Shown: piece by piece, positions 18,011 through 36,228 of the stretch | How the letters are laid out: each line of letters starts with the position of its first letter | Numbering within the stretch: position 1 is the first letter of the stretch | Virus record (IMG/VR): IMGVR_UViG_3300046804_000671 | Location: 1-55,271 of that record | Reading direction: 5' to 3' (one strand) | Source of the DNA: a virus | DNA length: 55,271 bases | The notes under the pieces: model-generated | The model's database searches: none | The model's input: only the letters and a program-made list of their open reading frames with translations | Told to the model about the DNA's origin: nothing | Made by a program: the position numbers and the translations under genes

Positions 18011-19535
18011 AGGTGGACAGCAGCAACAGCAGCCGCAGCCTACAAGCTCTACGGTTACACAGTCAAACATTCCTGAGTACGCGCGTCCGTATTTCGAAAA
18101 CCTGCTCCAGAGAGCGCAGGCTACAAGCGAGCAGCCATATACTCCTTATACAGAACAGAGGATTGCAGACCTAGCGCCGCAGACAACTAAAGCCATCAGC
18201 AATATCTCAGCCAGCCAAGGCATCGCCACACCATATATTAACGCCGCTGGAGGCGCTCTTGGGAATGCCTCAGCAAGCATCAATAATGCTGCTGGGTATC
18301 AGGCACCGACAATCGAGAGTCAGTATCAAGCTTCGCCAATTACATCAAGCTATCAGCCGGGGCAGATTGGAAGCAACTACACTCCCGGAATTATCAGCAG
18401 CACGTATCAGGCTCCAAATATCCAAAATACGTATAACGCCGGAAACATTAGCTCACAGTATCAGGCTGGCAGCTATACGCCTACGTCAGGAATTATGCAG
18501 CCTGCTCAGATGTGGAATCAGCAGCAGGCCCAGCAGTATATGAGTCCGTACCAGCAGTCTGTTACAGATGTCGCCAAGAGAGAGGCGGCCAGACAGTCGG
18601 CTATTGGTGGACTTGGAGAGCAGGCTCAGGCCACTCAGGCTGGAGGATACGGCGGCTACAGACACGGACTTGTTGAAGCAGAGAGAGCCAGAAACCTTAG
18701 CCAGCTTCAGAACCAGATTCAGGTTCAGGGAGATCAGGCAGCGTATAATCAGGCGGCTCAGCAGTTTGGAGCAGATAGAGCCGCCCAGCTTGCGGCAGCG
18801 CAGGCGGCGCAGAACGCTTCCCAGTTCCAGTATGGAGCGACCCAGCAGGCACAGCAGACACAGGGCGCGCAGAGCCTTCAGGCACAGCTTGCCGCAGAAC
18901 AGGCCAGACAGACTCAGGGAGGTATGTCTCTGCAAGCTCAGCAGGCGATGGCACAGGCTCTACAGGCTCAAGGAGCGCAGAGTCTACAGGCTCAACAGGC
19001 CACAGAACAGGCAAGACAGACTGGAGGAGCGCAGTATCTTCAGGGTCAGCAGCTTGCAGAACAGGCTGGTCAGGCCGCAGGAGCGCAGGGAATTCAGGCG
19101 CAACAGGCCACGCAGCAGGCTCTACAGAATCAGGGCCTACAGTCATTGCAGGCGCAGCAGGCCAATGCTCAGGCTCAGCAGCAGGCCGCCAATCTTTGGC
19201 TCGGCGCTGGGCAGGCTGGTCTTGGACTAGCTCAAGGCTTGGGTTCACTTGGCACCACCGCTCAGAAAGCCGGTGCGTTCGATACCAGTCAACTTCTCAC
19301 TGCTGGCAATATTCAGCAGCAGGCACAGCAGGCGCAGCTTAATCAGAAATATCAGGACTTTCTATCTCAACAGTACTACCCGATGCAGCAGGAACAGTTC
19401 CTCAGTTCAATCCTCAGAGGACAGGTCATTCAGCCCAGCACTCTTCAGGCTACATACCAGCAGCCGTATGATCCTGTGTCTCAGGCTCTTGCTCTGGGCA
19501 TTGGTGGCGCTGGCCTTGCTAGGGCTTTCGGATAA
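18003..19535 (+). CDS. Gln/Ala-rich repeat internal virion protein
   Basis: This 510-residue protein starts with a Gln-rich tract, then PEYARPYFENLLQRAQ, which recurs in podovirus internal proteins. Tandem Gln/Ala heptad-like repeats follow (about 250-400, e.g. GAQSLQAQQA). The repeats predict long helices or coiled coils suited to a trans-envelope channel. The last segment is hydrophobic (ALALGIGGAGLARAFG). Confidence 0.65.
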   Translation: MGKGGQQQQQPQPTSSTVTQSNIPEYARPYFENLLQRAQATSEQPYTPYTEQRIADLAPQTTKAISNISASQGIATPYINAAGGALGNASASINNAAGYQAPTIESQYQASPITSSYQPGQIGSNYTPGIISSTYQAPNIQNTYNAGNISSQYQAGSYTPTSGIMQPAQMWNQQQAQQYMSPYQQSVTDVAKREAARQSAIGGLGEQAQATQAGGYGGYRHGLVEAERARNLSQLQNQIQVQGDQAAYNQAAQQFGADRAAQLAAAQAAQNASQFQYGATQQAQQTQGAQSLQAQLAAEQARQTQGGMSLQAQQAMAQALQAQGAQSLQAQQATEQARQTGGAQYLQGQQLAEQAGQAAGAQGIQAQQATQQALQNQGLQSLQAQQANAQAQQQAANLWLGAGQAGLGLAQGLGSLGTTAQKAGAFDTSQLLTAGNIQQQAQQAQLNQKYQDFLSQQYYPMQQEQFLSSILRGQVIQPSTLQATYQQPYDPVSQALALGIGGAGLARAFG

Positions 19536-19545
19536 GGAAATAAAA

Positions 19546-22341
19546 ATGGCTCTTTCACTTAATCAGGCTCAGGCCATTGTTCAGAAGCTCTCAAACGAAC
19601 AGCTTATGCAGGCCTATACAAGCGGAACCATTCCACAGTTTGTGGTCTTCTCAGAGATGCAGAGAAGACAGAACATGGCGAACTCTCAGGCCAAGGCACC
19701 AACACAGACTGTTGCCGAGAAGATGATTGGCAGCGAGGAGCCAGAAGGCATTGCCTCAATGCAGCCGCCACAAATGGCAGCCAAGGGCGGAATCACAAAG
19801 GTTTCGCCTCTCTCAATGGGTTATTCAGAAGAACTCCCCAGAGAAGCATTGAAGATTATTGAAATGCGCCGAAAGCAGATGCAGGATCTGGAGGAACCCG
19901 ATTACAATCCTCCTCAGTATGCTGCTGAGGGTGGCGCTCTCAGGCTTGCTGGTGGCTCCGATGGAGATTACGTGTACTCAGGAGACACAGAAATTGCAGA
20001 GGCACCAGTTTCTAGAACTGACATTCCGTCTCCAAGCCCACCTCCAGTTGTTTCTAAGGGTGATTTTAATCCTTCAGGTATTGTTTCTCCTGAATATATT
20101 TTCAACAAGTTTAAGCAGCTTGGATATTCGGATCAGGCTGCCGCCGCGCTTGCCGGTAATGCTCAGCATGAAAGCTATGGAAACCCTAGACAGAAGCAGA
20201 TCAAAGGACCCGGAATGGGTCTCATGCAGTGGAGTCCTGACAGATTCAACAGCTTGATTGATTATGCCAATTCGAAAAACATCAACCCATATGATGTAGA
20301 TACACAGATTGATTTCATTCATAATGAACTTGGTGGAAAAGAGGCATCAAGCGGAAAGAAGCTCAGATCAGCAAGCAGCCTGAATGACGCGAATAACGCA
20401 GTTCTTTCTTATCTTAGGCCAAAGAATTATTCCGCAAAAGACCCGACAAAGACAATTCATTATAATGACAGATACAGGAACGCGGCACAAATTCTTGGAA
20501 TTGGTTCAGAGCCTCCCAGAGTTAGGCCAGAGGGAGCTGATACATATGTTCCGCAAAGGCAGGGAGCCATCAATCCCACTCAGGGAGGAGATGTATATTA
20601 TTCTAGATTTATGTACCCAGAAAAGAAAAAAGAACAGACAGATTCAGAAAGAGGTCTCGCTGCGTTGAGGGCCGCCCAGATTGTTCAGTCAATTGGCAGA
20701 CCTCCAATGAACAGAAACAATGGTGGTCCTATTTATCTTAATGAAAGTTCAGACGGAACACCTGTTAGCTCTGGAGAAGTAAAGAAAACTCCTTTTGGAA
20801 ATATGCTTACACTATCAAATGGAGAAGAAGTTATCATTCCTCCGGGCATGAGTGTAGATGACGCAAAAAGAATTTTCTCAAGAACTCCAACATCTACTCC
20901 GGGTGTAAACCCTCAGGCTGCTCCTGTGCATACAGATTCTGGATCAGTCCCTCAGAAGATTTACGAAGGAACAAAGGGTCTGATCGGGAGAATGTGGGAT
21001 GCTGTCCCGTCTAGGGAGGAAGCTGGTCAGGCTGTCGACAGATTTGGATCTGGCATCAAGAGTATCTACGAAGGTGCCACGGCTGGAAAGCGCAGACTTG
21101 AGAGTGCCAGAACTGCTACTCCCGGCGCTCCTTATACAGCCACTGGAATTGGACTTCCCGGTATCGGAGACGATGAGGCTTATCAGGAGGAGGCTCCCAA
21201 GTCTTCTATTGCCGGTCGCTGGCTTGATGAATCAACCAGCGGACTAAGCACTTGGCTGAAAGGAAACCCGCTTTCTCACGAACTTCAGGCTCTCATTGAT
21301 GAGAGAGAGAAGTATGAAACAGGCCTCTTTGAGGAGCTTACTGACAAGCAGAGAGAAGAGAGAGCTAAGAAAATTTCTCAGATCGATACACAGATTGCTG
21401 CTGTCCGCGCAAGAATGAAGGAAGGCTTCGAAGACCCAAGCACCAATAGATCTATGCAGCCTAAGCCTGACGGCACTACTTTTCCTAGGTCTGTTGATGG
21501 CGGTGGACCGGCTGGGACTGAGCCTCCTGTTCCTCCTCAGGGTATTCCGGGCGCTCCGAGGGCCAGACCTCCTGTTGGAGGAGATAAGGGTATTCCTACC
21601 GCTGGTTCTGCTCAAGGTGGTGTCGGAGGAGTTGGTGGCTCTGGTGCTGGCGCTCCGGGTGGTGCTGGAGAAGATCAGTCATTCTCTCAGGTTCTCAAGC
21701 AGGTCAAGGATGCCATTGGATCAAGTGTTCCTGACGAAATGAAGGAACAGATGAAGCAGCATCAGAATGCTCTGCGAGAGATGGGCAATAATAAGTTTAT
21801 TGACGCCATGCTTTCTGCCGCGAAGACACTTGCCGGTCAGAGAAAGGGTAGCGTCAACTTTGCCGACGCGGTTGCAAACGCTGGACTTGCTGCTCAGGTT
21901 GCCAAGGAAAAAGAAAGAAAAGCTGAAGATGACATGCGTAAGTATAGAATTGAGGCAATCAAGCTTGAGCAGGAGGGCAACAAGACCGCCGCTACTCAGG
22001 CCATGAACTATGTCATTCAGGCTAACCATGACAAGAGAGCGCTCCAGACTGCGATGATGCAGACATCAAAGATGATTCAGGCTCAGGAAGCTTCCGACAG
22101 AAGAGCAAATATTGCCGCTTCTACAAAGGAACTTGTTGCGGCAGAATCAAAGCTTGCTGATCTCAATAGAATGATTCTCAATCCTCAATCATTTGGCATC
22201 ACCGATACGAAGGCTCTTGAGATTGAGAGAGACAGACTTAATCAGCAGATCCAAGGCGCTGAAGCGGCCCTAAAGTACTGGCAGACAGGAACCAACTATG
22301 ATGCGGTTCGTGCCGAAGCCAAAAGAAGAGGACTTATTTAG
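19546..22341 (+). CDS. Internal virion protein with tail-lysozyme domain
   Basis: The 931-residue product begins at 19546 after AAGGA. Residues about 181-320 match the Phage_lysozyme2/tail-lysozyme fold: FNKFKQLGYSDQAAAALAGN, a candidate catalytic Glu at 209 in AQHES, and GPGMGLMQWSPDRF. It would digest peptidoglycan during DNA ejection. The C-terminal third is Gly/Pro-linked helix and coiled coil. A longer frame upstream overlaps the previous gene and is rejected. Confidence 0.75.
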   Translation: MALSLNQAQAIVQKLSNEQLMQAYTSGTIPQFVVFSEMQRRQNMANSQAKAPTQTVAEKMIGSEEPEGIASMQPPQMAAKGGITKVSPLSMGYSEELPREALKIIEMRRKQMQDLEEPDYNPPQYAAEGGALRLAGGSDGDYVYSGDTEIAEAPVSRTDIPSPSPPPVVSKGDFNPSGIVSPEYIFNKFKQLGYSDQAAAALAGNAQHESYGNPRQKQIKGPGMGLMQWSPDRFNSLIDYANSKNINPYDVDTQIDFIHNELGGKEASSGKKLRSASSLNDANNAVLSYLRPKNYSAKDPTKTIHYNDRYRNAAQILGIGSEPPRVRPEGADTYVPQRQGAINPTQGGDVYYSRFMYPEKKKEQTDSERGLAALRAAQIVQSIGRPPMNRNNGGPIYLNESSDGTPVSSGEVKKTPFGNMLTLSNGEEVIIPPGMSVDDAKRIFSRTPTSTPGVNPQAAPVHTDSGSVPQKIYEGTKGLIGRMWDAVPSREEAGQAVDRFGSGIKSIYEGATAGKRRLESARTATPGAPYTATGIGLPGIGDDEAYQEEAPKSSIAGRWLDESTSGLSTWLKGNPLSHELQALIDEREKYETGLFEELTDKQREERAKKISQIDTQIAAVRARMKEGFEDPSTNRSMQPKPDGTTFPRSVDGGGPAGTEPPVPPQGIPGAPRARPPVGGDKGIPTAGSAQGGVGGVGGSGAGAPGGAGEDQSFSQVLKQVKDAIGSSVPDEMKEQMKQHQNALREMGNNKFIDAMLSAAKTLAGQRKGSVNFADAVANAGLAAQVAKEKERKAEDDMRKYRIEAIKLEQEGNKTAATQAMNYVIQANHDKRALQTAMMQTSKMIQAQEASDRRANIAASTKELVAAESKLADLNRMILNPQSFGITDTKALEIERDRLNQQIQGAEAALKYWQTGTNYDAVRAEAKRRGLI

Positions 22342-22343
22342 TA

Positions 22344-25300
22344 ATGGACCTTTCATCTCTCTCTGACGAAGAACTGATGCATCTGTATAACAGCGGAGGC
22401 AAGAAGTCAAAAGATCTTTCGTCTATGTCTGACCAGCAGCTTATGGATTTGTATGGAAGGCTTTCTCCACCAAAGCCTCCCGCTACCAGAGCAGAAGAGA
22501 AGAAGGCACAGGAAGAGCCGGGAGTATTTGGTAGGCTTGGCAAAGAGTTTAGTCGCCAGACAGAAAGCCTTATCTCTTCAGGCAGAACAGCATACGAGAC
22601 TCTCACAGAAGAAGACAAGGCTGCTGTTGCTCATAGAGCAGAAGAGAGACAGAAGAAGATTGCGGAGAAGTATGGGCCGGAGAGAGGCCTTGCTGAAGTT
22701 CAGAAGGCATACGAAGAGAAGGGAATTCTTCCTGCCGCTGGAGAAGTTCTGTATCAGGTTCCGGGTGCCATTGGTTCTATTCTTCCGACAATGGCTGGTG
22801 GTATTGTTGGCGGATTGGTTGGAGGCCCCGCTGGTGCCGCTATTGGCATGGGTGCTGTTTCTGGCGCTACACAGTTGGGAACAAATCTAGAGCGTCAGTT
22901 TGAGAAGCAGGCAAATGAAGGGAAGCCAATCGACCCGGATGTAGGAGCCGCTGCCATTGGCGCTCTTGCTCAGGCTGGACTTGATACCGCTGGCTTCATG
23001 ATTCCATTCGGTAAGGCAATCATTGCTCCATTCTCAAAGGTTGCATCCAAGAGCGGGACTGCTGCCGCTGAGAAGCTTGCCGCCGAGTCAATCACCAAGA
23101 CCCTTGCAAAGGGTACTGCTGTTGGAATGATCGCTGAAGTTCCGACAGAAGTCGCACAGCAGATGATCGAAAGATATCAGGCTGGATTGGATCTGTTCTC
23201 GGATGATGCTCTAAAGGAATATGCAGAGATTGCATATAAGACTTCAATCAGCGTTGCTCCTCTTGGCGGCCCCGGAAGGATGATTGAGAAATCAGGAGCC
23301 AAGGCTCAGGTTGCAAAAGCAGCCGCCGACGAGGAAGAGAAGAAGCGTCTTGCCGCAGAGGAGACGCAGTACGTTGGTCAGAGACAGCAGGAATTCATTC
23401 AGGCTGATGAGGCCAGACGACAGCAGGAGCAGGCTCAGTCTGAAGAGGCTGCTAAAGCTGCTGGAATGGGATATGTTCCCAAGCTTGAAGCTCCACCAAA
23501 GAGAGCAGAGGATAGTGCCCCCGCTCCAGAAGAGAGAACATACCCAGAACTCAGGGGTGACAATTTTGTAATTGTTGGAGAGAAGAGCGGAAACCCTGTT
23601 CAGGGTGGCTTCAGAACAATGGAAGAGGCAAAGGCTGCTTCAGATAAATTCAATTCATTGTTTGAAGAATCGGAAGGTAGGGCAGAAGAAGAAGAACTTA
23701 AGTCTATTCGCAAACAGCACGGCGATCTTCTTAAGGCTCTTGCAAACCCAGACTATATTCCAATTGACAAGTCTAAGCTTAAGGGGTCTGACGGTTGGCT
23801 CGCGCTTAAAATCAATGAACATAGAAGAAACCGTGGCGCTGACGACCGCACAATTGCATCTAACATTACATATCCTGCTGAAATTGCAGAACTGAATATT
23901 CACAACCCGAAGGAACTGTCTGACAGACTTATTGAAGAGCAGTACCCCGGAGTAAAGGCAAAGGGTCTAACAATCCCCGCGCTTGGTGCTACGGCAAGAG
24001 GTGAAGCTCTAATTAATAAGCATGATACAATCGATTCAATTCCGAAGAGAATGACCAAAGATCTAAAGGTCATCGCTGCCGAAAATGGAATTGAAGTAAA
24101 TGCAGGAACAAAGCCTCTAGATGTAATCAACAACCTTAGAAAGATTTCTGGAAGAGATGCTCTTGTTAAGGAAGAAGAGCAGCTTGGAAAAAATAGACCT
24201 GCAATTGTTAGCGCCCAGCCAGATAGCATAACTAGGCAGGCCAGAGAGCAGCAGATCGCTGAAGAGAGAGCCTCTAAAGATTGGGAGAACAGCCCTGTCC
24301 GTCCGTTTTCTGAGGCTGTTGAGAAGCAGCAGGATAGAGTAAACAAGCTTACAGAAGCTGCCGAAAAAGCCAAAAACAACAAGGCCAAGGTCGCTCTACA
24401 GAAGCGTATCGACAAGGCTCAGGAACAGCTTAATGAGGCCCAGAATAATCTTAACGAGGCCAAGAAGAAGTACGGAGTAACAGAAGGACCGTACCGCCCA
24501 GCGGAAGTAATCGGCCAGCAGAAGGTTCAGGAACAGTCCAAGATGAAGGCTGCCCTGAAGACCGCATTCGACAGGATGGGTCTGACCAAGCAGGGCATCT
24601 CGCCTCAGGTCGTGGACTATCTGGCCAATGAACAGGGTCAGGCACAGAGAGGTGCCGGTGCTGTAGAGGCCGAGTACAATCCTCAGGCCAAGACAATTAC
24701 CTTCGCCTCAGATATCTACGATCCAAACCTTTCTGTTGACCAGATCGTTGACAAAATGATGGACGTTCTCAACCATGAGATCATCCATTCCCTGAAGGCC
24801 GCTGGTCTTTTCACCAAGCCTGAATGGAACATCCTTGAGAACTTCGTGAAGAGCGGAGAAGGCAAGAGATTCCTTGAGCGTGCCAAGATTGTCTATCCAG
24901 ACTTGTCCACAGAGGCACAGATCGAAGAGGCTGTTGCGGAGGCTGCCCGTGCCTTCAAGGCTGGCGACTTCAAGCCTGTTGGAAAGCCAAGAAGTCTTTT
25001 CGAACGCATCATCAACTTCTTCAAGAGTATCTTTTCAACAGCCAAGACAAACAACACCACACCTGACGCCATCTTCAATGCAATAAGAACTGGAGAGATT
25101 GGTGGTCGCAAGGCCACGCAGGATGCCGCCAAGACGCAGCCTATGCAGTCAAGGGTTGGCGACAATGGAGGCCCTCCACTGGAGGAAAAGAAGAACTGGA
25201 TCAACGTTCCTAGACTTCTCCAGTTCCTTGGCAGTCAGATGTACAAGAATGACATTGGTCAGGTTGCTTCGAAGGAGCTTATTCAGAATGCCTTTGACTC

Positions 25301-28300
25301 AGTGAAGATGGCTCAAGCTCAGGGCGTGTTGCTTGGGCCGGGAAAGATTATCTATGATTATCATTCCAAAGAAAACATCATGAAGGTGTCCGATAACGGT
25401 ATCGGAATGGACGAAGATGTTCTTCGCAAGGCGTTCTTTACTGTATTCGGAAGCGACAAGAAGGGACTTGATCCAAAGGAAAGATCAGGTGGATTTGGTC
25501 TTGCAAAACTTGCTTATCTTCTTGCGGCTGAAGACATCAAAATCAAAACTACAAAGGATGGAGTAACGTATAGAATTCATACTTCTGGTGAAGCCATCAA
25601 GAAGATGTATGAAGATGGAACTGACATTAAGATTGACAAGGAGTCAACTCCCAGCGCGCCAAATGGAACTTCTGTCGAGGTTAAAATTCCCAAGGAATCT
25701 GTCGACAGAATGTCTGGGAATAAAGTTGAGAATTCAGTTTTGTATCCTCGTGTTCTTCATGGACGTAATAGAAAGTTCATCGGCAACGCCAAGTTCTACG
25801 AAAGAGCTTACTGGCAAAGAGATGAAGAGCCTGAAGAGATCAAAGAACTTACAGACCTAAGTGAGTTTGATCCTCCTCAAACAAAAAAGTTTTCATGGGG
25901 AGAAGTTGACGTATATCTTGGCAGGAAGCTTGAAGAAGGCAGCGAACGCGCTCAGGTTTTGAGCGCTGGAGTTTATCAGTTCAATTATTCTATTATGGAT
26001 AATTTTAAGTCTCCAAAGATTAAGTCGATATTCAATGTAAAGCCATACAACACTCCAGCCCCAATTGATCTTGAGGAGTACATCGGAGAAGGAAAGAAAG
26101 AAGGAACATCAACAGCATATCCGTTTACACCTGATAGAGAGAACTTCTCTGAGTTTGTCAAGGGAGACTTGGGGACACTTGAAGCAATTGTCTGGAAGAG
26201 GCATAACGATTTGGTTATGCAGAGCCAAGTCAAGGCGATGTCATCGTTTTATAAGATGAAGCAGTCTAGTGGAGAGTCTGGCGGTGGATTTAGATTCAAG
26301 AGCATTAGCAGCCCAACAAATACCTCAGGCAAGTCAACCCAGTTTGAGAAGGTTGATGTCGGTCTTAGCGACATAGACATTAAAAACAATGTTTTTACTG
26401 GAGACAAGAGTAAATTTCCTTCTTTTGAGCCTTACTTCCACAACAATCTTGACATTGACATTGTAGAAAAGGCCGCTAGCGAACACGGCATCCAGCCAGA
26501 AAGAGCAAGGCAGTTCTTCTTTGAGCTTGGCAAGGTTGTTCATGATTTTTCGTTTAAGAATATTGCTGCTGTTGCTGAGGTAAATCCTGATTATAAGTCA
26601 TATCTCCCCGGAGCGGAAGAAAGAATTGCTGGAATATCACTGGATAAGGATTACGCTGGAGTCAATGCAAGATTCCCACTTTCCGGCATGTACCTAAATC
26701 CTTTCTACACTGAATTCTTTTCATCTAGAAATATCAAACTTACTCCGTCAATAATGGGTCCGTACTGGCTCAGAGTAATGAAACACGAAGCAGCTCATGA
26801 AGTTGCAAGAGGACATAACAATGATTTCTGCGTAGAAGAGGTTGTGCTTGACACACTTCTTCACGACACCGATGGTAAAGCTGGACCAACCATGTCAAAC
26901 CTCATGAAGAGGTTTGAAAAAATCTATTCAGATTATCTAACAGAATATGAGGCGATGAAAGATGTCTACGACAGAGATGATACGAAAAACAATTCTACTT
27001 CCCTCGATGACCAAAGGCTCAGCGAAGGACCCGAACTGGAAGAAGACTCTGGAAGAAAGGCTGTTCGGTCTAGAGATGAGTATGTTTCTGGTAGAGAAAG
27101 ACAAGAGGTCGCGTCCGGAAGACAAGAAGGAAGCGAAGGAGGTTTCTTTGTTCCTAAAGGAATGTCTATCGAAGCTGAAAGCGTCACCGACCAAGGAAGT
27201 GTTCGCCAAAAGAATGGGCCTGTAAAGCAGGCAAGAGTTGGTCCTTCCAATCCTGTGAATATTAATCTTAATACACCTACGCAGGTTGGAAGAAGCAACC
27301 AGATCAACCAGCTTATCATTAACAACAATAGATATCTTTCTCAGCTTACCGCTGAAGAGGGCACTCGCACTTCCCAAACCTACAAAGACTATATCAAGGA
27401 AGTGATTGACCCATTCCATATGCTTGGTAAGGGTGCTGACAAGTTCCGCATTGCTAGGGCGCTTCTTGTCGGAAACATTGCCGAGATGACCAGAAAGGTC
27501 AATGACTACGTCAAGGCTATCGGTGATGCCAAGGGAGACAAGAAGGCTATCTACGATTACCTGACAACAAGAGGTGCCCTGCCTGACCGTATTGGTAATG
27601 CTGAAGCAAGAAGGGCGGCGGTCGCCGTCAAGGATATCATCAACGATATCGGAGACGAGCTTGTCAGGCAGAATCTGATCAGCCAGAACGAAAGAAACCG
27701 CTTCCTTGATTCGTATCTGCCCAGAGTATATCTGGCTTATATCGATAAGAAGCATGTCAGGGGAGGCATCAAGCCTTCTTACCAGTACTACCTTGAGCAT
27801 CGTCAAGACTTGACTGAGGAGGAGAGAACCCGCCTCGGAGAGATTGACGATCCTGCATTCCTTGTTCAGGAAGCTCTGTTCTCTCCGCTCCGTGATCTTG
27901 CCATTCTAAACTTCTTCAAGAAGATCAATGACATTGGACAGGGTCAATGGATCATTGGGATGGATGCAATCAGATATACAAACCCTTCAGGGCATACATA
28001 CCAGAAGTCACTGCCTGAACTGAAGATGTTCAAGCATAGACTTGAAAGCATGATCTCTGATGGAACGGTTGAGCCTTCAAGGGCTGCTGTTGCAAACGAC
28101 GAGCTTGCTCATCTCACTTCGTTCATCAATAACGTCGAGAGCCAGCTTGACGCCAACGTTGACAAGGGAAGATACATTAAGGTTGCCAAGGACCCGAAGA
28201 GATTCGGTCCTTTGGCTGGAGTGTGGCTTGCTCGCCCAATCTACAGAGACATCATGGGAATGGGTTCATTCGTTCCAAACGACATGAGCGCCGTTGCTGC

Positions 28301-29771
28301 CGCGTTCTCTGATGGTGGCCTAATGGCCAAGGCTACCCGCCACTTCAAGGTGGCAAAGGTCGCCATGAATCCTCCTACCATTGTCACAAACATTATCTCC
28401 AATACACTTATGATGCATTTCGCTGATGTGCCAATGCGTCTAATCTTCCCTAGGGTTGCCAGCGTGTTCAAGGAGATTGTTGTAGACAAGAGAGGAAGAT
28501 ACTACGATCTCGTCCATAAGTACGGACTCAAGGAAACAACACTGTCTGAGGTTGAGCTTCACCGTCTGTACGATGAACTCCGCAATAGACAGATTGGTTC
28601 ATCTGGACTCGGCAATGTCATGGGCATGTTCAATGCACTTGGCAGAGCATATGGAAATCTTGAAGACAAGGCCAGCAATATGTACGGCTCAATCGAGACC
28701 GTCTTCAAGGCGGCCGTCATCAAGGATGCCATCGAGCGTCAGGGTCTGTCTGAGGAGCAGGCTGTACTCAAGGCAAACAAGTACCTGTTCGATTACAGCG
28801 AGGTTCATGACTCAGTTAAGGCTCTCAGAAACGTTCCGTTCGGAGCGCCGTTCTTGACTTGGTCCTACAAAATGACTCCGCTGCTCATCGAGACGGCTCT
28901 TACAAAGCCTTGGAAGTTCGCCCCATATGCCATGCTGTTCGCTGGCGTGTCAATGTACGCCTCTGCTGCAATGACTGATGCTGGCGGCGATCCTGAAGAC
29001 AAGGACAAGATGAAAAAGTTCATCTCGCTCAAGGCTGCACAGAACCCAATGCTTCTTGCATACAGCCCAACAGATGCGTTCGATTTCGGCAAGTACATGC
29101 CTTTCAACAACATCTATAAGTTTGCCGACGCTCTTCTTAAGGGTGACTTTGTTGAGGCGTTCAAGGCGTTCGGATTCTTCGGAGGACCAATCGCTGATCT
29201 TGGTGTGGCGTTGCTTGCCAAGAAGGACCCATTCACTGGTAACGATATCTTCCCGAAGGGAGCATCATACGACGAGAAGGTTGCCCTGTCATTCAACTAC
29301 CTTCTCAACTCCTTCACTCCTTCATTCATGAAGGATATGCCTAGGTTCATTGCTGGGCACGGCATCAGCGATACTGAGCTTATCGCTGGCGCTGAGTCTC
29401 CGGTTGTCAACCTGTTGAAGAAGGTGTTTGAAGATCCAACTGGCAAGAAGCCCGGAATGCCTACAAAGGATTACGGTGAAATCTTTGCCAACATCTTTGG
29501 GTTCAATATCTACCATCCGTCATTCGCTCAGTATGCAATGAACCTAAACAAGTTCAACAGAGAGATCGATGACATCAAGACTGGTAGAAGAAACGCATTG
29601 ATGGACCCCACCCTGTCAAAGGGTGAGATCGAAAGCATCAACAAGAAGTATACAAAAATGCTTGAGGAGAAATCCAAGGAACTCCGAGACTTTGTCAAGG
29701 ACTCCAAGATTTCTCCACAAGTTATGGAAGTCATCAGGCAGAGCGTTGAGGGTACAGCGAGGAGCAAATGA
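22344..29771 (+). CDS. Giant polyvalent virion protein: zincin, GHKL ATPase, second zincin
   Basis: This 2475-residue protein starts with short DLSS(L/M)SD repeats. A Gly/Ala membrane-active segment follows at about 139-179. HEIIH (811-815) is a HExxH zincin motif. A GHKL ATPase core comes next: N-box E978..N982, G1 box D1017-N-G-I-G, and G2 box GGFG at 1049-1052. A second zincin follows, HEAAH (1481-1485) with H1491. The C-terminal half resembles large polyvalent-protein domains (LPD38-type PFLTWSYKMTPL near 2168) with a hydrophobic segment near 2192-2211. It is probably injected with the genome and acts in the host. Confidence 0.8.
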   Translation: MDLSSLSDEELMHLYNSGGKKSKDLSSMSDQQLMDLYGRLSPPKPPATRAEEKKAQEEPGVFGRLGKEFSRQTESLISSGRTAYETLTEEDKAAVAHRAEERQKKIAEKYGPERGLAEVQKAYEEKGILPAAGEVLYQVPGAIGSILPTMAGGIVGGLVGGPAGAAIGMGAVSGATQLGTNLERQFEKQANEGKPIDPDVGAAAIGALAQAGLDTAGFMIPFGKAIIAPFSKVASKSGTAAAEKLAAESITKTLAKGTAVGMIAEVPTEVAQQMIERYQAGLDLFSDDALKEYAEIAYKTSISVAPLGGPGRMIEKSGAKAQVAKAAADEEEKKRLAAEETQYVGQRQQEFIQADEARRQQEQAQSEEAAKAAGMGYVPKLEAPPKRAEDSAPAPEERTYPELRGDNFVIVGEKSGNPVQGGFRTMEEAKAASDKFNSLFEESEGRAEEEELKSIRKQHGDLLKALANPDYIPIDKSKLKGSDGWLALKINEHRRNRGADDRTIASNITYPAEIAELNIHNPKELSDRLIEEQYPGVKAKGLTIPALGATARGEALINKHDTIDSIPKRMTKDLKVIAAENGIEVNAGTKPLDVINNLRKISGRDALVKEEEQLGKNRPAIVSAQPDSITRQAREQQIAEERASKDWENSPVRPFSEAVEKQQDRVNKLTEAAEKAKNNKAKVALQKRIDKAQEQLNEAQNNLNEAKKKYGVTEGPYRPAEVIGQQKVQEQSKMKAALKTAFDRMGLTKQGISPQVVDYLANEQGQAQRGAGAVEAEYNPQAKTITFASDIYDPNLSVDQIVDKMMDVLNHEIIHSLKAAGLFTKPEWNILENFVKSGEGKRFLERAKIVYPDLSTEAQIEEAVAEAARAFKAGDFKPVGKPRSLFERIINFFKSIFSTAKTNNTTPDAIFNAIRTGEIGGRKATQDAAKTQPMQSRVGDNGGPPLEEKKNWINVPRLLQFLGSQMYKNDIGQVASKELIQNAFDSVKMAQAQGVLLGPGKIIYDYHSKENIMKVSDNGIGMDEDVLRKAFFTVFGSDKKGLDPKERSGGFGLAKLAYLLAAEDIKIKTTKDGVTYRIHTSGEAIKKMYEDGTDIKIDKESTPSAPNGTSVEVKIPKESVDRMSGNKVENSVLYPRVLHGRNRKFIGNAKFYERAYWQRDEEPEEIKELTDLSEFDPPQTKKFSWGEVDVYLGRKLEEGSERAQVLSAGVYQFNYSIMDNFKSPKIKSIFNVKPYNTPAPIDLEEYIGEGKKEGTSTAYPFTPDRENFSEFVKGDLGTLEAIVWKRHNDLVMQSQVKAMSSFYKMKQSSGESGGGFRFKSISSPTNTSGKSTQFEKVDVGLSDIDIKNNVFTGDKSKFPSFEPYFHNNLDIDIVEKAASEHGIQPERARQFFFELGKVVHDFSFKNIAAVAEVNPDYKSYLPGAEERIAGISLDKDYAGVNARFPLSGMYLNPFYTEFFSSRNIKLTPSIMGPYWLRVMKHEAAHEVARGHNNDFCVEEVVLDTLLHDTDGKAGPTMSNLMKRFEKIYSDYLTEYEAMKDVYDRDDTKNNSTSLDDQRLSEGPELEEDSGRKAVRSRDEYVSGRERQEVASGRQEGSEGGFFVPKGMSIEAESVTDQGSVRQKNGPVKQARVGPSNPVNINLNTPTQVGRSNQINQLIINNNRYLSQLTAEEGTRTSQTYKDYIKEVIDPFHMLGKGADKFRIARALLVGNIAEMTRKVNDYVKAIGDAKGDKKAIYDYLTTRGALPDRIGNAEARRAAVAVKDIINDIGDELVRQNLISQNERNRFLDSYLPRVYLAYIDKKHVRGGIKPSYQYYLEHRQDLTEEERTRLGEIDDPAFLVQEALFSPLRDLAILNFFKKINDIGQGQWIIGMDAIRYTNPSGHTYQKSLPELKMFKHRLESMISDGTVEPSRAAVANDELAHLTSFINNVESQLDANVDKGRYIKVAKDPKRFGPLAGVWLARPIYRDIMGMGSFVPNDMSAVAAAFSDGGLMAKATRHFKVAKVAMNPPTIVTNIISNTLMMHFADVPMRLIFPRVASVFKEIVVDKRGRYYDLVHKYGLKETTLSEVELHRLYDELRNRQIGSSGLGNVMGMFNALGRAYGNLEDKASNMYGSIETVFKAAVIKDAIERQGLSEEQAVLKANKYLFDYSEVHDSVKALRNVPFGAPFLTWSYKMTPLLIETALTKPWKFAPYAMLFAGVSMYASAAMTDAGGDPEDKDKMKKFISLKAAQNPMLLAYSPTDAFDFGKYMPFNNIYKFADALLKGDFVEAFKAFGFFGGPIADLGVALLAKKDPFTGNDIFPKGASYDEKVALSFNYLLNSFTPSFMKDMPRFIAGHGISDTELIAGAESPVVNLLKKVFEDPTGKKPGMPTKDYGEIFANIFGFNIYHPSFAQYAMNLNKFNREIDDIKTGRRNALMDPTLSKGEIESINKKYTKMLEEKSKELRDFVKDSKISPQVMEVIRQSVEGTARSK

Positions 29772-31822: not shown

Positions 31823-31899
31823 TGGTCGGAGTAGCAGGATTCGAACCTACGACCCTCTGCTCCCAAAGCAGATGCTCTACCAAGCTGAGCTACACTCCG
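31823..31899 (-). tRNA. tRNA-Pro (TGG)
   Basis: A full cloverleaf is visible: 7-bp acceptor (CGGAGTG with TACTCCG, one G-U), D-arm GAGC, anticodon loop TTTGGGA with anticodon TGG, T-loop TTCGAAT, discriminator A and an encoded CCA. Confidence 0.95.
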
Positions 31900-31912
31900 T
31901 GCCATTTAGTCT

Positions 31913-33820
31913 TTAAGTGAGGTCCACGACCTCGCATACTCCTGCGGAACACGCAAGGTCTTGCGAACCTGTCGTTCTGTCTCCCTGTTCAAACTTCCCA
32001 AGCTCTCTCCAATCAATAGCCGTAGGCATAGAACTGAGAAGCTTCTCGTAAGTCTCCTTATCGCATTCCTCATAGGGGGCCTGTCTGTATGAGTGGTCTG
32101 AGTGAGGCAGGAACGAGATGCCTGACACTTCATCGAAGTGCTTCCAGACCCACGCACCAACCTCAACCCATTCATGTTCCTTCACCGTCACAGTGATTGA
32201 CGGCTTGTGTTCGCACCAATGACGCTGAATCTTGAGCCAAAGTTCAAGCTGCTCGATGGCACTGAGATCGTTCCGCGTGATGCTTCCTTCCGGAGCCTTG
32301 ATCGGGAAGGAGAACACGGCGGTCGCCTCAGGTTTCATCACATCATCTTCAACCGGGATATTAGCCAGCGACATAAATGTAGTAATTGGGTCCTTCTTGT
32401 CCCCGCGAACGCGCCGAATATAATAAGGGCTGTGACGTGCATGAATACCACTAGCACTATCAACAAGCTGGCTAACCGTACCAGAAGGCTTGACGCAAGT
32501 GACGGCAGTCGATTGATTGATGCCAAGCTTCTCCGAAAGCTTCTTGTTAACAAAGACAGCATGATCTCTCCACGCCTCAAGATGTTCAGCAGGAGCGTCA
32601 TACACAAACTTGCTATCAAGGATGCCAGTCAGCGAGACTCCAAGCAGCCGCTCTTCCTCAGTGTTCTTCTTCCAGATACGACGAAGATAACGGAAGTCAG
32701 TCATGGTTGACTGGATTGTGCCAAGAATAGCGGCGACCTCGACCTTACGCATCATATCGTTATGGTCATCACCGGCACGGCACACCAGTTCAGTCAGGTT
32801 ACAGAACTGGTAAGGACGCAGGATGATCTCGGAGCAGGGGTTGGTTCCCCACTCATGACCACCCTCGCGACGACCGTTCTTTACAGCCTGCTTCTCGGAA
32901 GCTACTCTGTTAAAAATACCACGCTCTCCTGACTTGCTTTGGTAAAGAGCCAGCCATTCCTGCATGAAACTCCCAGTGTCGGGTCTTTCGGTATAACACA
33001 CAGAGTTATTTGCGAGAGCGCGTTGGGGTTCTGTTTCCCACCAAGCTCCTGACTTTGCTTGGCGCATTCTGTCATCGCTAAGGTTAGAAAGAGAAATAAG
33101 AGCAGAACGACGAACCCCGCCCACGACCACAACTTCCGCAACCTTGCAAGCAAGGTCATGGCACTCGATACTTGTGAGTTTTCTTCCCTTTGCATTCTGG
33201 AACAACCTTACTGCAAACTTAAACAAATCAACAAGAGGCTCAGGACCTGAGGCACGACCTCCGAAAGTCTTGAGGCGAGCGCCAGCAGGACGTACCTTAG
33301 ACACATCCCACTTGGGAATGCGACCACCGTACAGCATTGATACAAGTTCGCGGAACGCCTTTGCCCAGCCTTCCTTGCTATCCTCAACTACAATTGTAGT
33401 AGATGATTCATCGAACTGGTCCGAGATCACAGGGAGTTCGTTAACAAATTGACGCTCAACGCTAAACCCAACCCCAGTGCCACACATAAGGATATATAGC
33501 AACTCGTCAAACGCTCGCTGATCATCAATAGGAAGGTAGCTACAATTATACCCAGCCACATTGCAACGCTCCAGAGCAGGGCCAGCCGTCATCATGGCGC
33601 GCATAGACGGCATAACATCAAGGTTGATGATCGATGTGCGAATCTTGTTGAGGGTCTTGGCATCAAAGGAGAAGTCAAAGTTCTCCTTCAGATGATTTGT
33701 AAAGAAACTAATATATCTATCTACAGTCTCCTCCCATGTCTCTCTGCGTTGCTTATCATCAAGATATCGTGCATATCTTGATGCATGGATGAAAGACTGG
33801 TAATCTGTAGGTAGTGACAT
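31913..33820 (-). CDS. Ribonucleoside-triphosphate reductase, adenosylcobalamin-dependent (class II)
   Basis: The 635-residue enzyme reduces ribonucleotides to supply dNTPs. It matches monomeric class II reductases: redox Cys 93 in YNCSY, active-site NPCSE with Cys 329 and Glu 331, and the C-terminal CSAGVC shuttle (Cys 624, Cys 629). B12 must come from the host. The start is 33820, with GGAG 6-7 bases upstream; the ATG at 33841 lies in the promoter -10 and is excluded. Confidence 0.93.
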   Translation of the reverse strand: MSLPTDYQSFIHASRYARYLDDKQRRETWEETVDRYISFFTNHLKENFDFSFDAKTLNKIRTSIINLDVMPSMRAMMTAGPALERCNVAGYNCSYLPIDDQRAFDELLYILMCGTGVGFSVERQFVNELPVISDQFDESSTTIVVEDSKEGWAKAFRELVSMLYGGRIPKWDVSKVRPAGARLKTFGGRASGPEPLVDLFKFAVRLFQNAKGRKLTSIECHDLACKVAEVVVVGGVRRSALISLSNLSDDRMRQAKSGAWWETEPQRALANNSVCYTERPDTGSFMQEWLALYQSKSGERGIFNRVASEKQAVKNGRREGGHEWGTNPCSEIILRPYQFCNLTELVCRAGDDHNDMMRKVEVAAILGTIQSTMTDFRYLRRIWKKNTEEERLLGVSLTGILDSKFVYDAPAEHLEAWRDHAVFVNKKLSEKLGINQSTAVTCVKPSGTVSQLVDSASGIHARHSPYYIRRVRGDKKDPITTFMSLANIPVEDDVMKPEATAVFSFPIKAPEGSITRNDLSAIEQLELWLKIQRHWCEHKPSITVTVKEHEWVEVGAWVWKHFDEVSGISFLPHSDHSYRQAPYEECDKETYEKLLSSMPTAIDWRELGKFEQGDRTTGSQDLACSAGVCEVVDLT

Positions 33821-33839
33821 ATTGATCTCCAAAACCCCC

Positions 33840-33867
33840 ATTATACTAGATGTAGCTTAAATGTCAA
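33840..33867 (-). promoter_or_regulatory. Consensus sigma70 promoter for the reductase
   Basis: On the minus strand a perfect -35 TTGACA (33862-33867) and a perfect -10 TATAAT (33840-33845) are separated by 16 bases. Transcription would start near 33833, just before the reductase ATG. The -35 overlaps the dUTPase stop. Confidence 0.88.
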
Positions 33868-34322
33868 GCCACATCGAATGCGCGTGTGCCAGTTGATCCG
33901 AACCCACCAGCGCCACGGTCAGTTTCGTCTAGCAGACCATCAACAAACTGGACCCGTTCGTATCTGGCGATTACCATCTGAGCGATGCGGTCGCCCTGAT
34001 TGATGGGGAACGGCTCGGTGCCAAAGTTCATGAGGATGACGCTGATCTCACCACGGTAGTCAGAGTCGATGGTGCCGGGGCTGTTCAGGACCATGACGCC
34101 CTTCTTGGCAGCAAGGCCTGAGCGTGACCGAATCTGGGCCTCAAGACCCACAGGAAGGCCAAGCTTGACGCCAGTAGGAACCATGACGCGCTGCCCCGGA
34201 AGCAGCACGATAACGTCCCTAGAGGCAGACACAAGGTCATACCCAGCAGACCCAGCGGTGGCACGCTCCGGGTTGGGAGGGAGCCATCCGTCTCGCTCAA
34301 TCTTCTCAATCTTTGCAAACAT
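33864..34322 (-). CDS. dut: dUTP diphosphatase (trimeric dUTPase)
   Basis: The 152-residue protein has all five dUTPase motifs: [30 protein letters not shown] and the C-terminal [10 protein letters not shown]. It converts dUTP to dUMP, limiting uracil in DNA and feeding dTMP synthesis. It lies upstream of the reductase on the same strand, though the reductase also has its own promoter. Confidence 0.95.
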
Positions 34323-34334
34323 ATCTCACCTATC

Positions 34335-34408
34335 TGGAGCGGGCAAAGGGATTCGAACCCTTCTCTTCAGCTTGGAAGGCTGAGGCACAGCCCCTATACC
34401 ATGCCCGC
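34335..34408 (-). tRNA. tRNA-Gly (TCC)
   Basis: Cloverleaf with acceptor GCGGGCA/TGCCCGC, anticodon loop CTTCCAA (anticodon TCC), T-loop TTCGAAT, and encoded TCCA 3' end. It sits between dUTPase and a membrane microprotein. Confidence 0.94.
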
Positions 34409-34412
34409 TGTG

Positions 34413-34529
34413 TTACATACAGAACCGAATGTGTGACAGATAGTAGAGGCCACCAATCACACACATTGCAAACAGGATGGCCGCACTAAAGATAGACCAA
34501 GCCACAATCTTTGTGATTAAGTCTTTCAT
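34413..34529 (-). CDS. 38-residue membrane microprotein
   Basis: A short frame starting at 34529, after AGGGG, encodes MKDLITKIVAW followed by one hydrophobic segment (about 8-31) and a short basic end. It would be a single-pass inner-membrane peptide. Its role is unknown. Confidence 0.55.
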   Translation of the reverse strand: MKDLITKIVAWSIFSAAILFAMCVIGGLYYLSHIRFCM

Positions 34530-34531
34530 AT

Positions 34532-34771
34532 CTACCCCTGAAAGTTAGGACGAGTAGCCAGACCACAATACCCATGAGTCTCTGACTCAATGTAGGGAGG
34601 CGGGTCAGTGCGGTAGTCACGACCATCCTCAATGATCATCATGTCATGCTTAGGATTCCAGTCAGGATTCAACTCAGGCTTCCACCTCCACATGGCGCAA
34701 CCAGAGCCAAGGCAAACATCCTTGTGAACTGGGCACGAATATGATTTAGACCTCATATCGATGATATACAT
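34532..34771 (-). CDS. Unknown Cys-containing phage protein
   Basis: The 79-residue product starts at ATG 34771, overlapping the upstream stop in TGATG, with AAGGGG before it. Four Cys (SCPVHKDVCLGSGC and GYCG) could bind metal. Function unknown. Confidence 0.55.
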   Translation of the reverse strand: MYIIDMRSKSYSCPVHKDVCLGSGCAMWRWKPELNPDWNPKHDMMIIEDGRDYRTDPPPYIESETHGYCGLATRPNFQG

Positions 34772-35103
34772 CACTTGTTCCCCTTCATGATATGCTCAGG
34801 CATCTGCATGAAACCCTTCATGGCTTCCTTCCAGATGCCCTCGATGTACGGAAGTTCCTTGTCCTGCATTACCTGAGCCATAGCCATGACGGCCTGCCTG
34901 TGGTGGGCAAGGAGAAGGTCTGTCGTGCCACGCAGGGTCTTGAGGTAGGTGTCGACGGGCTGGCCGCCCTTCTTCTCCTGCTCCTTGTAGGCGCACAGTT
35001 GCTTCCAAGTTAGGCCATCAGGCACATACTCGGACGGCTCGACGGCATACACCAGATTGCTAAGCCGCTCTACTTCCTTCTCAAGTTCTTCAATCTTGCT
35101 CAT
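34771..35103 (-). CDS. Unknown helical phage protein
   Basis: This 110-residue protein has an N-terminal heptad-like helix (EELEKEVERLSNL) and further helices to the C-terminus. It is coupled to the following gene by TGATG. No family recognised. Confidence 0.6.
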   Translation of the reverse strand: MSKIEELEKEVERLSNLVYAVEPSEYVPDGLTWKQLCAYKEQEKKGGQPVDTYLKTLRGTTDLLLAHHRQAVMAMAQVMQDKELPYIEGIWKEAMKGFMQMPEHIMKGNK

Positions 35104-35117
35104 GCTTCACCTGTAGT

Positions 35118-35207
35118 TGGCGGAAGGGGCGCGATTCGAACGCGCGGTGCAGTTTCCCACACGCTAGTTTTCAAGACTAGAGCCTTAAACCACTCGGCCA
35201 CCCTTCC
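35118..35207 (-). tRNA. tRNA-Ser (TGA)
   Basis: A 90-nt type II tRNA: acceptor GGAAGGG/CCCTTCC, anticodon loop CTTGAAA (anticodon TGA), a long variable arm, T-loop TTCGAAT and encoded GCCA. Its 5' base overlaps the stop codon of the next gene. Confidence 0.94.
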
Positions 35208-35452
35208 TAGTTGCAAATGAATCCGTTGCCAATCTTGGCGCAGGACTTACGCTCACCCAGAAAATACACACCACCAAAGTTAGTGATGCTCTCTCCGGTT
35301 GTATAAGTACTCGTCGTGGTTCCATCAGTGGTCACGCCACTCGGGAATGTCGGTGAGTAGATCGGATACTCCTGCCCTCTAACTTCCCTGAATGTAATCA
35401 GTGAAATCATAAGGACAATAAACCCGAACACAAGCCAGCTAAACCAGTTCAT
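35207..35452 (-). CDS. Small exported or membrane-anchored protein
   Basis: This 81-residue protein starts at 35452 (MNWFSWLVFGFIV) with one hydrophobic segment at about 2-22. A Thr-rich extracytoplasmic part and two Cys near the C-terminus follow. The segment could be a signal peptide or anchor. The stop TAG shares one base with tRNA-Ser. Ribosome-binding site is weak. Confidence 0.5.
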   Translation of the reverse strand: MNWFSWLVFGFIVLMISLITFREVRGQEYPIYSPTFPSGVTTDGTTTSTYTTGESITNFGGVYFLGERKSCAKIGNGFICN

Positions 35453-35624
35453 GTGTCTTCTTCTTTCTGTAGAGCCAAGTGGTATGCAGGGCACGCACAC
35501 TTGTATGTGTATAGAAAGGTTCAGGCATGTACATCGGAGGCATGTACTGGTTCAACAGTACTGCCTCGATGAACTTGGCTGGAGTGATGTCCTTAAGACG
35601 CACTGAACTGGTCCTTGTAGACAT
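35439..35624 (-). CDS. Unknown small phage protein
   Basis: The 61-residue product begins MSTRTSSVRLKDITPAKFIEAV and has a Met/Pro-rich centre (YMPPMYMPEPFY). Start is uncertain: ATG 35624 has GGAGG only two bases before it, and TTG 35636 has none. It overlaps both neighbours. Confidence 0.45.
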   Translation of the reverse strand: MSTRTSSVRLKDITPAKFIEAVLLNQYMPPMYMPEPFYTHTSVRALHTTWLYRKKKTHELV

Positions 35625-35811
35625 GACCTCCAGCAATCAGAAGCATCTGGAAGACGTTGCCATGTGACTCGGAGTTGATGGAGTACGCCATCTCACCATC
35701 CTTTGTCAAGGCAATAACAACGAACTCCTCGTATTCTTCCTTCAGCCTGTCGATAACACTGGAGGGAATCTTGCCAGACTTCTTGCTCATCTTAACAACG
35801 TTGTCGCTCAC
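35593..35811 (-). CDS. Conserved small phage protein (MSDNVV type)
   Basis: Start GTG 35811 with GGAGGG 4-5 bases before it gives a 72-residue protein beginning MSDNVVKMSKKSGK, a common phage small-protein opening. Helix ERLKEEYEEF-like and a beta hairpin follow. The longer frame from 35838 lies within the upstream gene. Confidence 0.6.
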   Translation of the reverse strand: MSDNVVKMSKKSGKIPSSVIDRLKEEYEEFVVIALTKDGEMAYSINSESHGNVFQMLLIAGGHVYKDQFSAS

Positions 35812-35812
35812 A

Positions 35813-36052
35813 TCACCCTCCAAGTTTCTTTTGTACAAGCCAAGCTATCTTATCTAGGCACAGCTTGCCAAGTCTTTCCTTTGTGTATCCAGAATAACCA
35901 TAATCATCACTGGTGTCTATAGTATGAGGATACACATTAATTCTCCAACCTTCTTGCTTAGAATATGATACATCTACAAGATCATAATCTTTTGAGGTTT
36001 TTACGAGATTAAGAAGTTTGTCAAGCTGTTCAGTGTCGTCTTTACTAAGCAT
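35813..36052 (-). CDS. Unknown acidic phage protein
   Basis: The 79-residue protein starts at ATG 36052, GGAG lying 6-7 bases before it. The N-terminus is helical and acidic, and the rest has YTKERLGKLCLDKIAW. It lies between tRNA-Arg and the MSDNVV-type gene. Function unknown. Confidence 0.55.
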   Translation of the reverse strand: MLSKDDTEQLDKLLNLVKTSKDYDLVDVSYSKQEGWRINVYPHTIDTSDDYGYSGYTKERLGKLCLDKIAWLVQKKLGG

Positions 36053-36068
36053 GTCAGACTCCAGCAAT

Positions 36069-36145
36069 TGGCGTGCCCGACTGGACTTGAACCAGTAACC
36101 CTCAGCTTAGAAGGCTGATGCTCTTTCCAGTTGAGCTACGGGCAC
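36069..36145 (-). tRNA. tRNA-Arg (TCT)
   Basis: Acceptor GTGCCCG/CGGGCAC, D-arm GCTC/GAGC, anticodon loop CTTCTAA (anticodon TCT), T-loop TTCAAGT and encoded GCCA. Confidence 0.94.
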
Positions 36146-36153
36146 TAGACAAT

Positions 36154-36228
36154 TGGTGCTGGGTGAGGGATTCGAACCCCCAACCTTGGCCTTACAAAGA
36201 CCCTGCACTACCGTTGTGCTAACCCAGC
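36154..36228 (-). tRNA. tRNA-Thr (TGT)
   Basis: Acceptor GCTGGGT/ACCCAGC is perfect, D-arm GCAC/GTGC, anticodon loop TTTGTAA (anticodon TGT), T-loop TTCGAAT and encoded ACCA. The anticodon stem has a G-A mismatch at its outer pair. The stop of the upstream DUF3310 gene lies in its 5' acceptor. Confidence 0.88.

Follow-up and report, generated by a model that had tools for sequence, protein, structure and literature searches.

A GHKL ATPase joined to a probable Wss1-like zincin in giant polyvalent-type proteins of uncultured phages

The window analysed here is a 55.3-kb virus record (IMG/VR IMGVR_UViG_3300046804_000671, 55,271 nucleotides), in which a giant open reading frame (ORF; 22344..29771, plus strand, as are all features of this protein given below) begins with an ATG behind an AGAGGA-like sequence and stays open, intact, for 2475 aa. 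Judged from its sequence, residues ~945-1571 of this polyvalent-type protein are one module, in which a GHKL ATPase domain is followed by an S5-type domain with an invariant YP-R motif and then by an HExxHx5H zincin. Dozens of uncultured phages carry the GHKL-zincin pair, in every case together. Collapsed at 80% identity, the family comes to 31 non-redundant members, to which the residue counts below refer.

The first half of the module holds the N, G1, G2 and G3 boxes of the GHKL superfamily, all present and in order, in a GHKL (Bergerat) ATPase domain at residues 945-1135 (25176..25748). The N-box ELIQNAFD (residues 978-985; 25275..25298) keeps E, Q, N and D in every member, as the G1 box DNGIGM (1017-1022; 25392..25409) keeps D, G1021 and M, with N or D at 1018, and the G2 box GGFGLAK (1049-1055; 25488..25508) keeps GG-G-AK; in the G3 box GTSVEV (1108-1113; 25665..25682), G is found in 30/31 and T in 29/31. 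The S5-type middle or transducer domain follows at residues ~1135-1295 (25746..26228) and contains YPFTPDR (1259-1265; 26118..26138), where Y, P and R are again invariant. R1265 is the conserved arginine of the S5-type middle domain behind GHKL, as in Hsp90/HtpG, and the S5-type domain that holds the invariant YP-R is the one in which related ATPases have a catalytic basic residue (PMC2292703). The full set of residues invariant in 31/31 in this half is E978, Q981, N982, D985, D1017, G1021, M1022, K1039, G1049, G1050, G1052, A1054, K1055, Y1259, P1260 and R1265.

These motifs are more than chance resemblances, because Pfam HATPase_c_3 (PF13589) matches the window protein over its cut-off (E=2.4e-7; 31.3 bits vs 25), the NCBIfam HSP90-family model PRK14083 matches residues 962-1130 (E=3e-9), and the residues above are invariant in 31 relatives. 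PF13589 is also matched by all 31 relatives, and HATPase_c exceeds its own cut-off in a genome scan (27.8 bits). By the NCBIfam equivalog cut-offs the protein is not an Hsp90/HtpG orthologue (PRK14083, 35.9 bits vs 455; HtpG, 15.5 vs 371). A phmmer search of the module against PDB sequences found no match, but profile searches did, and the best PDB profile match of the ATPase half was HtpG. In an AlphaFold2 (AF2) model of residues 940-1571, built from an alignment of 12 sequences (predicted local distance difference test (pLDDT) 75.7; predicted template modelling score (pTM) 0.71), the ATPase half matches the N-terminal and middle domains of Hsp90 (Foldseek E 2e-12), and VIA, which aligned model residues 6-354 to these domains, returned Hsp90 at Z 20.1 over 292 residues, TopoVI-B at 19.9 and GyrB at 19.6. 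The ATPase half is thus predicted to adopt the Hsp90-type N-terminal plus S5 middle fold, a Bergerat fold. An earlier sequence-only reading of the window had proposed a GHKL ATPase of the Hsp90/histidine-kinase/MutL kind on the strength of its boxes (E978/N982, DNGIGM, SGGFGLAK and GTSVEV, all where it placed them), and this proposal is borne out by the hidden Markov model (HMM) matches, by the Bergerat fold of the model and by the conservation of the boxes across the 31 relatives. A model lacking the Bergerat fold, or homologues lacking the boxes, would have spoken against it; both points were checked and neither refuted it.

The second half is a probable Wss1/WLM-like metalloprotease domain (zincin 2) at residues ~1355-1571 (26406..27056). 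It carries the WLM/Wss1-type metal site HExxHx5HxxxF as HEAAHEVARGHNNDF (residues 1481-1495; 26784..26828), whose first eleven residues, HEAAHEVARGH (1481-1491), were the second zincin motif of the sequence-only reading. P1453, H1481, E1482, H1485 and H1491 are invariant in 31/31, which includes the H, E, H and H of the metal site. A model of the protease half (residues 1276-1571, 31 sequences; pLDDT 81.9, pTM 0.82) gave Wss1 at Foldseek ranks 1-5, each hit individually weak (E 0.6-1.8), and Wss1 again as the top four in VIA, the best at Z 6.9 over 115/126 residues and 3.4 Å. When the zincin profile was compared with PDB sequences, the first two matches were WLM/Wss1 (E 0.016 and 0.037), and Pfam WLM (PF08325) was matched by 7/31 relatives (best 1.5e-5). 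Because several lines agree, each of them weak or partial, a Wss1-like zincin, and so a putative protease, is the best call for this domain.

That the two halves belong together was first indicated by relatives of the C-terminal region, taken as the best 80 of 105 viral stretches found with a three-sequence profile (A1). A GHKL domain was present in 1/46 records examined among these 80, in a 2828-codon frame (L025/L093). Aligned to the window protein, this frame conserves the GHKL boxes and the second zincin (HEASHEIERNHGASF), with 36% identity over a 620-residue stretch that holds both, and their presence in one aligned stretch suggests one module. This closest relative (L093:5876-14359) has ART-PolyVal as well, and inspection by eye shows a second YHGT-type region, so that an ADP-ribosyltransferase and a clamp-protease would stand in one protein. 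A search of viral contigs with the module of a single protein found no match and a two-sequence profile was needed, which returned 24 viral loci and one genome locus; 12 distinct ORFs among these have the GHKL boxes followed by HExxHx5H 400-500 residues past DNGIGM. The one locus from the one genome scan made for cellular homologues (JAUYMQ010000012.1) is a 6.4-kb contig of a Deltaproteobacteria metagenome-assembled genome that holds the module in a giant open-ended ORF, and is probably phage or prophage.

A further scan was made from the zincin side. A zincin alignment of 9 sequences was too variable along its whole length to serve for scanning; the profile used (A6) covers window residues ~1353-1519, with no GHKL sequence included. 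It found 45 loci, a number that includes repeats of a few known loci and close copies; the frame was readable in 44, the remaining one (L166) being broken. In 44/44 readable loci a GHKL N-box and a GG-G-AK motif lie ~440 aa upstream of the zincin in the same ORF, with ORFs of 1039-4225 codons. Identity to the window copy is 18-35% for the module and 13-32% for its protease half, and the distance matrices of the two halves correlate at r=0.94, a value reached by 0/2000 permutations, as halves with a shared inheritance should do. Among 50,697 named phage records, four queries with the module found no full copy; they matched the GHKL half or nothing.

The module as a whole is mobile. It is present in 1/65 relatives of the window's C-terminal region (from the same best 80 of 105 stretches), and the N- and C-terminal relatives of the window protein are mostly without it. 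A separate HExxH metallopeptidase precedes the module in some members but follows it in other ones, and a free-standing 732-aa gene holds both GHKL and zincin (L103:9614-11812). Since flanking relatives mostly lack the module, the metallopeptidase varies in position and this gene stands alone, the module is an exchangeable cassette between polyvalent proteins. Around the free-standing gene, a portal gene lies upstream and phrog_62-type helicase genes on both sides, an arrangement with the parts of a polyvalent protein as separate genes.

The first zincin of the window protein has a different standing. Homologues from an iterated HMM search delimit a gluzincin-like metallopeptidase of polyvalent-protein type (zincin 1) at residues 720-932 (24501..25139), with HEIIH at 811-815 (24774..24788) and a proposed third ligand in EEAVAE at 861-866 (24924..24941). 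In three other giant ORFs (L076, L129, L140) its homologues have HExxH and then EEA(V/A)AE ~50 residues on. The metallopeptidases of polyvalent proteins are described with this layout, HExxH and a glutamate on successive helices, and their presumed role is the processing of the proteins that carry them (PMC5512222). By its conserved residues, HEIIH-811 thus marks a separate gluzincin-like domain of the polyvalent-protein framework. The sequence-only reading had placed a GHKL domain between two zincins. Two zincins are supported, the second by predicted fold and WLM/Wss1 matches and the first by conserved ligands only, but the description of a GHKL domain between two proteases misleads: zincin 2 and GHKL are one inseparable unit, and zincin 1 stands apart from it.

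The surroundings of the giant gene point to a virion protein. On the plus strand up to it lie genes for a major head protein and for tail-like and other virion proteins, and the giant gene ends this block, with nucleotide-metabolism and replication genes beyond. It begins two bases past the end of the preceding gene (19249..22341, plus strand), which is SLT/tape-measure-like by PHROG tail and lysis matches and encodes a putative internal virion protein, and whose true start may be further downstream. A match to a 'DNA ejection protein' family is found in the gene directly before the giant gene in one relative (L132) and two genes before it in another (L133). LPD38 occurs in 7/24 records of giant proteins with the module; the 16 module proteins scanned contain ART-PolyVal (4), LPD39 (2) and, in one protein each, domains such as ddrB-ParB, Mu F, SLT and helicase. 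The window protein itself combines several unrelated domains (the zincin 1 metallopeptidase, the module and the conserved C-terminal region) in one giant virion-region protein, as polyvalent proteins do. Packaging and injection are likely because of the ejection-protein genes, the SLT/tape-measure neighbour and the polyvalent domains in relatives (LPD38, ART-PolyVal, MuF), which support the injected polyvalent protein foreseen from sequence; the giant protein is most likely a phage polyvalent protein that travels inside the virion and leaves it together with the DNA.

Polyvalent proteins of phages and conjugative elements (Iyer et al., 2017, PMC5512222) share with the window protein a giant multidomain build, a place at the end of the virion block and a zincin metallopeptidase, and relatives of the module carry LPD38, LPD39, ART-PolyVal, ddrB-ParB, MuF and SLT domains. 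They differ in this effector module, as the main text of PMC5512222 names no GHKL, Hsp90, WLM or SprT domain. We class the whole protein as a polyvalent protein, a known kind, and the GHKL-Wss1-like module as a new variant; in the open-access literature, no publication was found that describes a phage protein with GHKL and protease fused. Hsp90/HtpG and TRAP1 share the GHKL and S5-type middle domains with the conserved arginine (Z 20), but the window protein falls far under their equivalog cut-offs, and Hsp90 has its own C-terminal dimerisation domain at the place where a protease domain stands here. Wss1/WLM and SPRTN proteases resolve DNA-protein crosslinks (PMC5127644), Wss1 being a yeast DNA-repair protease. 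Wss1 has the same HExxHx5HxxxF spacing and gave the top structure and profile matches, but the known ones work with Cdc48/p97, SUMO or ubiquitin (PMC5127644) and are not fused to a GHKL clamp. MORC, paraMORC and GHKL-containing restriction systems likewise use a GHKL plus S5 ATPase module in DNA conflicts, but with nuclease or methylase partners, and PMC2292703 mentions no peptidase. A known defence system was rejected, as PADLOC gave only weak matches, mostly to GHKLs of restriction enzymes. The best match named as a phage by E-value, MT837560.1, was set aside because its ORFs look bacterial; this GenBank record, a 'Bacteriophage sp.' from faeces, holds HtpG-like, sigma-factor-like and repeat proteins.

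The T4 rIIA family comes closest among named phages by tblastn. These phage proteins share an N-terminal GHKL-S5 unit and a variable C-terminal part, but HExxH was found in 0/4 rIIA proteins examined, and they are separate proteins of 640-801 aa rather than polyvalent ones. A simple rIIA homologue was rejected, the common part being GHKL only. The neighbouring window genes that were examined had either other matches or none, though no search aimed at the partner gene rIIB was made.

How might such a module work? With somewhat more confidence than doubt, we read it as a virion-delivered, ATP-gated clamp-protease whose likeliest clients are host proteins on the incoming phage DNA. In essence, an ATP-operated clamp of the Hsp90/TopoVI-B/MORC type (GHKL plus S5) would be hard-wired to a Wss1/WLM-type zinc protease. 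We infer ATPase and protease activity, dimerisation, self-processing, virion delivery, client and coupling. After delivery, zincin 1 (HEIIH-811) may free or trim the module, which would then dimerise. By analogy with related ATPases, ATP binding most likely closes the clamp, so that the client is offered to the protease: the GHKL domains would close around the client, with Arg1265 as the sensor of the S5 domain, and closure would either activate the protease or present the client to the HExxHx5H site, before ATP hydrolysis resets the clamp. DNA-bound host proteins are the first choice of client, given that proteins on DNA are the targets of Wss1-type proteases and that TopoVI/MORC GHKL-S5 clamps act on DNA; the likely class would comprise roadblocks, nucleoid proteins and DNA-bound defence complexes. 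The chaperone-protease or counter-defence role suggested in the sequence-only reading fits the architecture.

Several observations weigh against this reading. Pfam WLM (PF08325) has no match in the window protein at E up to 1, and the structural matches to Wss1 are individually weak, with no Foldseek E below 0.6 and Z <8. No LPD or ART domain of Pfam, LPD38 included, was detected in the window protein. The covariation of the two halves would also be expected from plain vertical inheritance. In structure, Hsp90 matches no less well than TopoVI-B, which makes a free protein client equally possible.

The last point leads to the main alternative for the client, a chaperone-protease of the Hsp90 kind whose targets are soluble host or defence proteins instead of DNA-bound ones. 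We consider it unlikely, though the most serious of the alternatives: the ATPase half has its best structural match in the Hsp90 N-terminal and middle domains and its best PDB profile match in HtpG, but TopoVI-B matches equally well (Z 19.9), and the protease half looks like Wss1, a protease known to work on DNA (PMC5127644). Somewhat less probable again is an ATP-controlled protease for virion assembly, one that works inside the infected cell or the procapsid, where it processes or folds the internal proteins of the virion, and has no host-directed effector role. The gene's place at the end of the virion-gene block, adjoining the SLT/tape-measure-like gene, speaks for it, as does the view that polyvalent metallopeptidases process proteins before packaging (P1 DdrB, PMC5512222); the patchy distribution of the cassette among similar giant proteins (1/65 C-terminal relatives) is unlike assembly and like an effector. 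Two independent neighbouring effectors, an rIIA-like counter-defence GHKL ATPase and a separate protease, are quite improbable. The GHKL half is similar to T4-type rIIA (tblastn E 2e-4; profile E 7e-17), and a 2021 jumbo-phage survey describes rIIA-type proteins as GHKL combined with variable C-terminal parts, with a poorly understood counter-defence role (PMC7824862), but GHKL is kept in all 44 readable zincin-side loci, both halves are catalytically invariant, the free-standing 732-aa protein has both, and the zincin occurs in 0/10 other GHKL relatives. Finally, a degenerate, inactive remnant serving as structural filler of a giant virion protein would accord with members only 18-35% identical to the window copy, but is hardly credible when all ATP-site and metal-site residues are invariant in 31 members at such divergence.

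In bacteria and phages, the energy-dependent proteases known so far are powered by AAA+ motors. That a GHKL clamp and a Wss1-like protease have been kept together at 18-35% identity with invariant catalytic residues points to an ATP-controlled protease of different design, and the recurrence of the pair suggests a type of ATP-controlled protease, not described before, that serves the early phase of infection. Being part of a probably injected protein, the module would act before any phage gene expression, so that what an incoming phage genome must first have removed or destroyed becomes a directly testable question. More tentatively, and with doubt the larger share, we propose that the module represents an energy-dependent protease of a new class, in which a GHKL clamp instead of an AAA+ ring is the gate, and that phage particles deliver it to strip proteins from the entering genome or to destroy defence complexes of the host. 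Should the protease indeed act on DNA-bound proteins, prokaryotic viruses would have their own counterpart of the crosslink proteases of eukaryotes, driven by a new source of power.

Outside the module, the N-terminal part of the giant protein has a Gly/Ala-rich hydrophobic stretch at residues ~130-225 (22731..23018), and BLAST relatives of this region include proteins with the module (L162, L131) and without it (L169-L171). An imperfect N-terminal repeat, DLSSLSDEELMHLY / DLSSMSDQQLMDLY, lies at 22344-22460 of the window; searched for as a simple pattern, it was not found in other module proteins. The C-terminal third matches other giant phage proteins through a conserved region of polyvalent-type proteins at residues 1690-2475 (27411..29768), the region matched in the 105 viral stretches. 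When 24 kb of the window were compared by megablast, no named phage proved to be related, and the only matches were short ones at a tRNA-Pro gene. Beyond the giant gene, positions 31823-36228 hold five minus-strand tRNA genes, interspersed with genes for ribonucleotide reductase and dUTPase.
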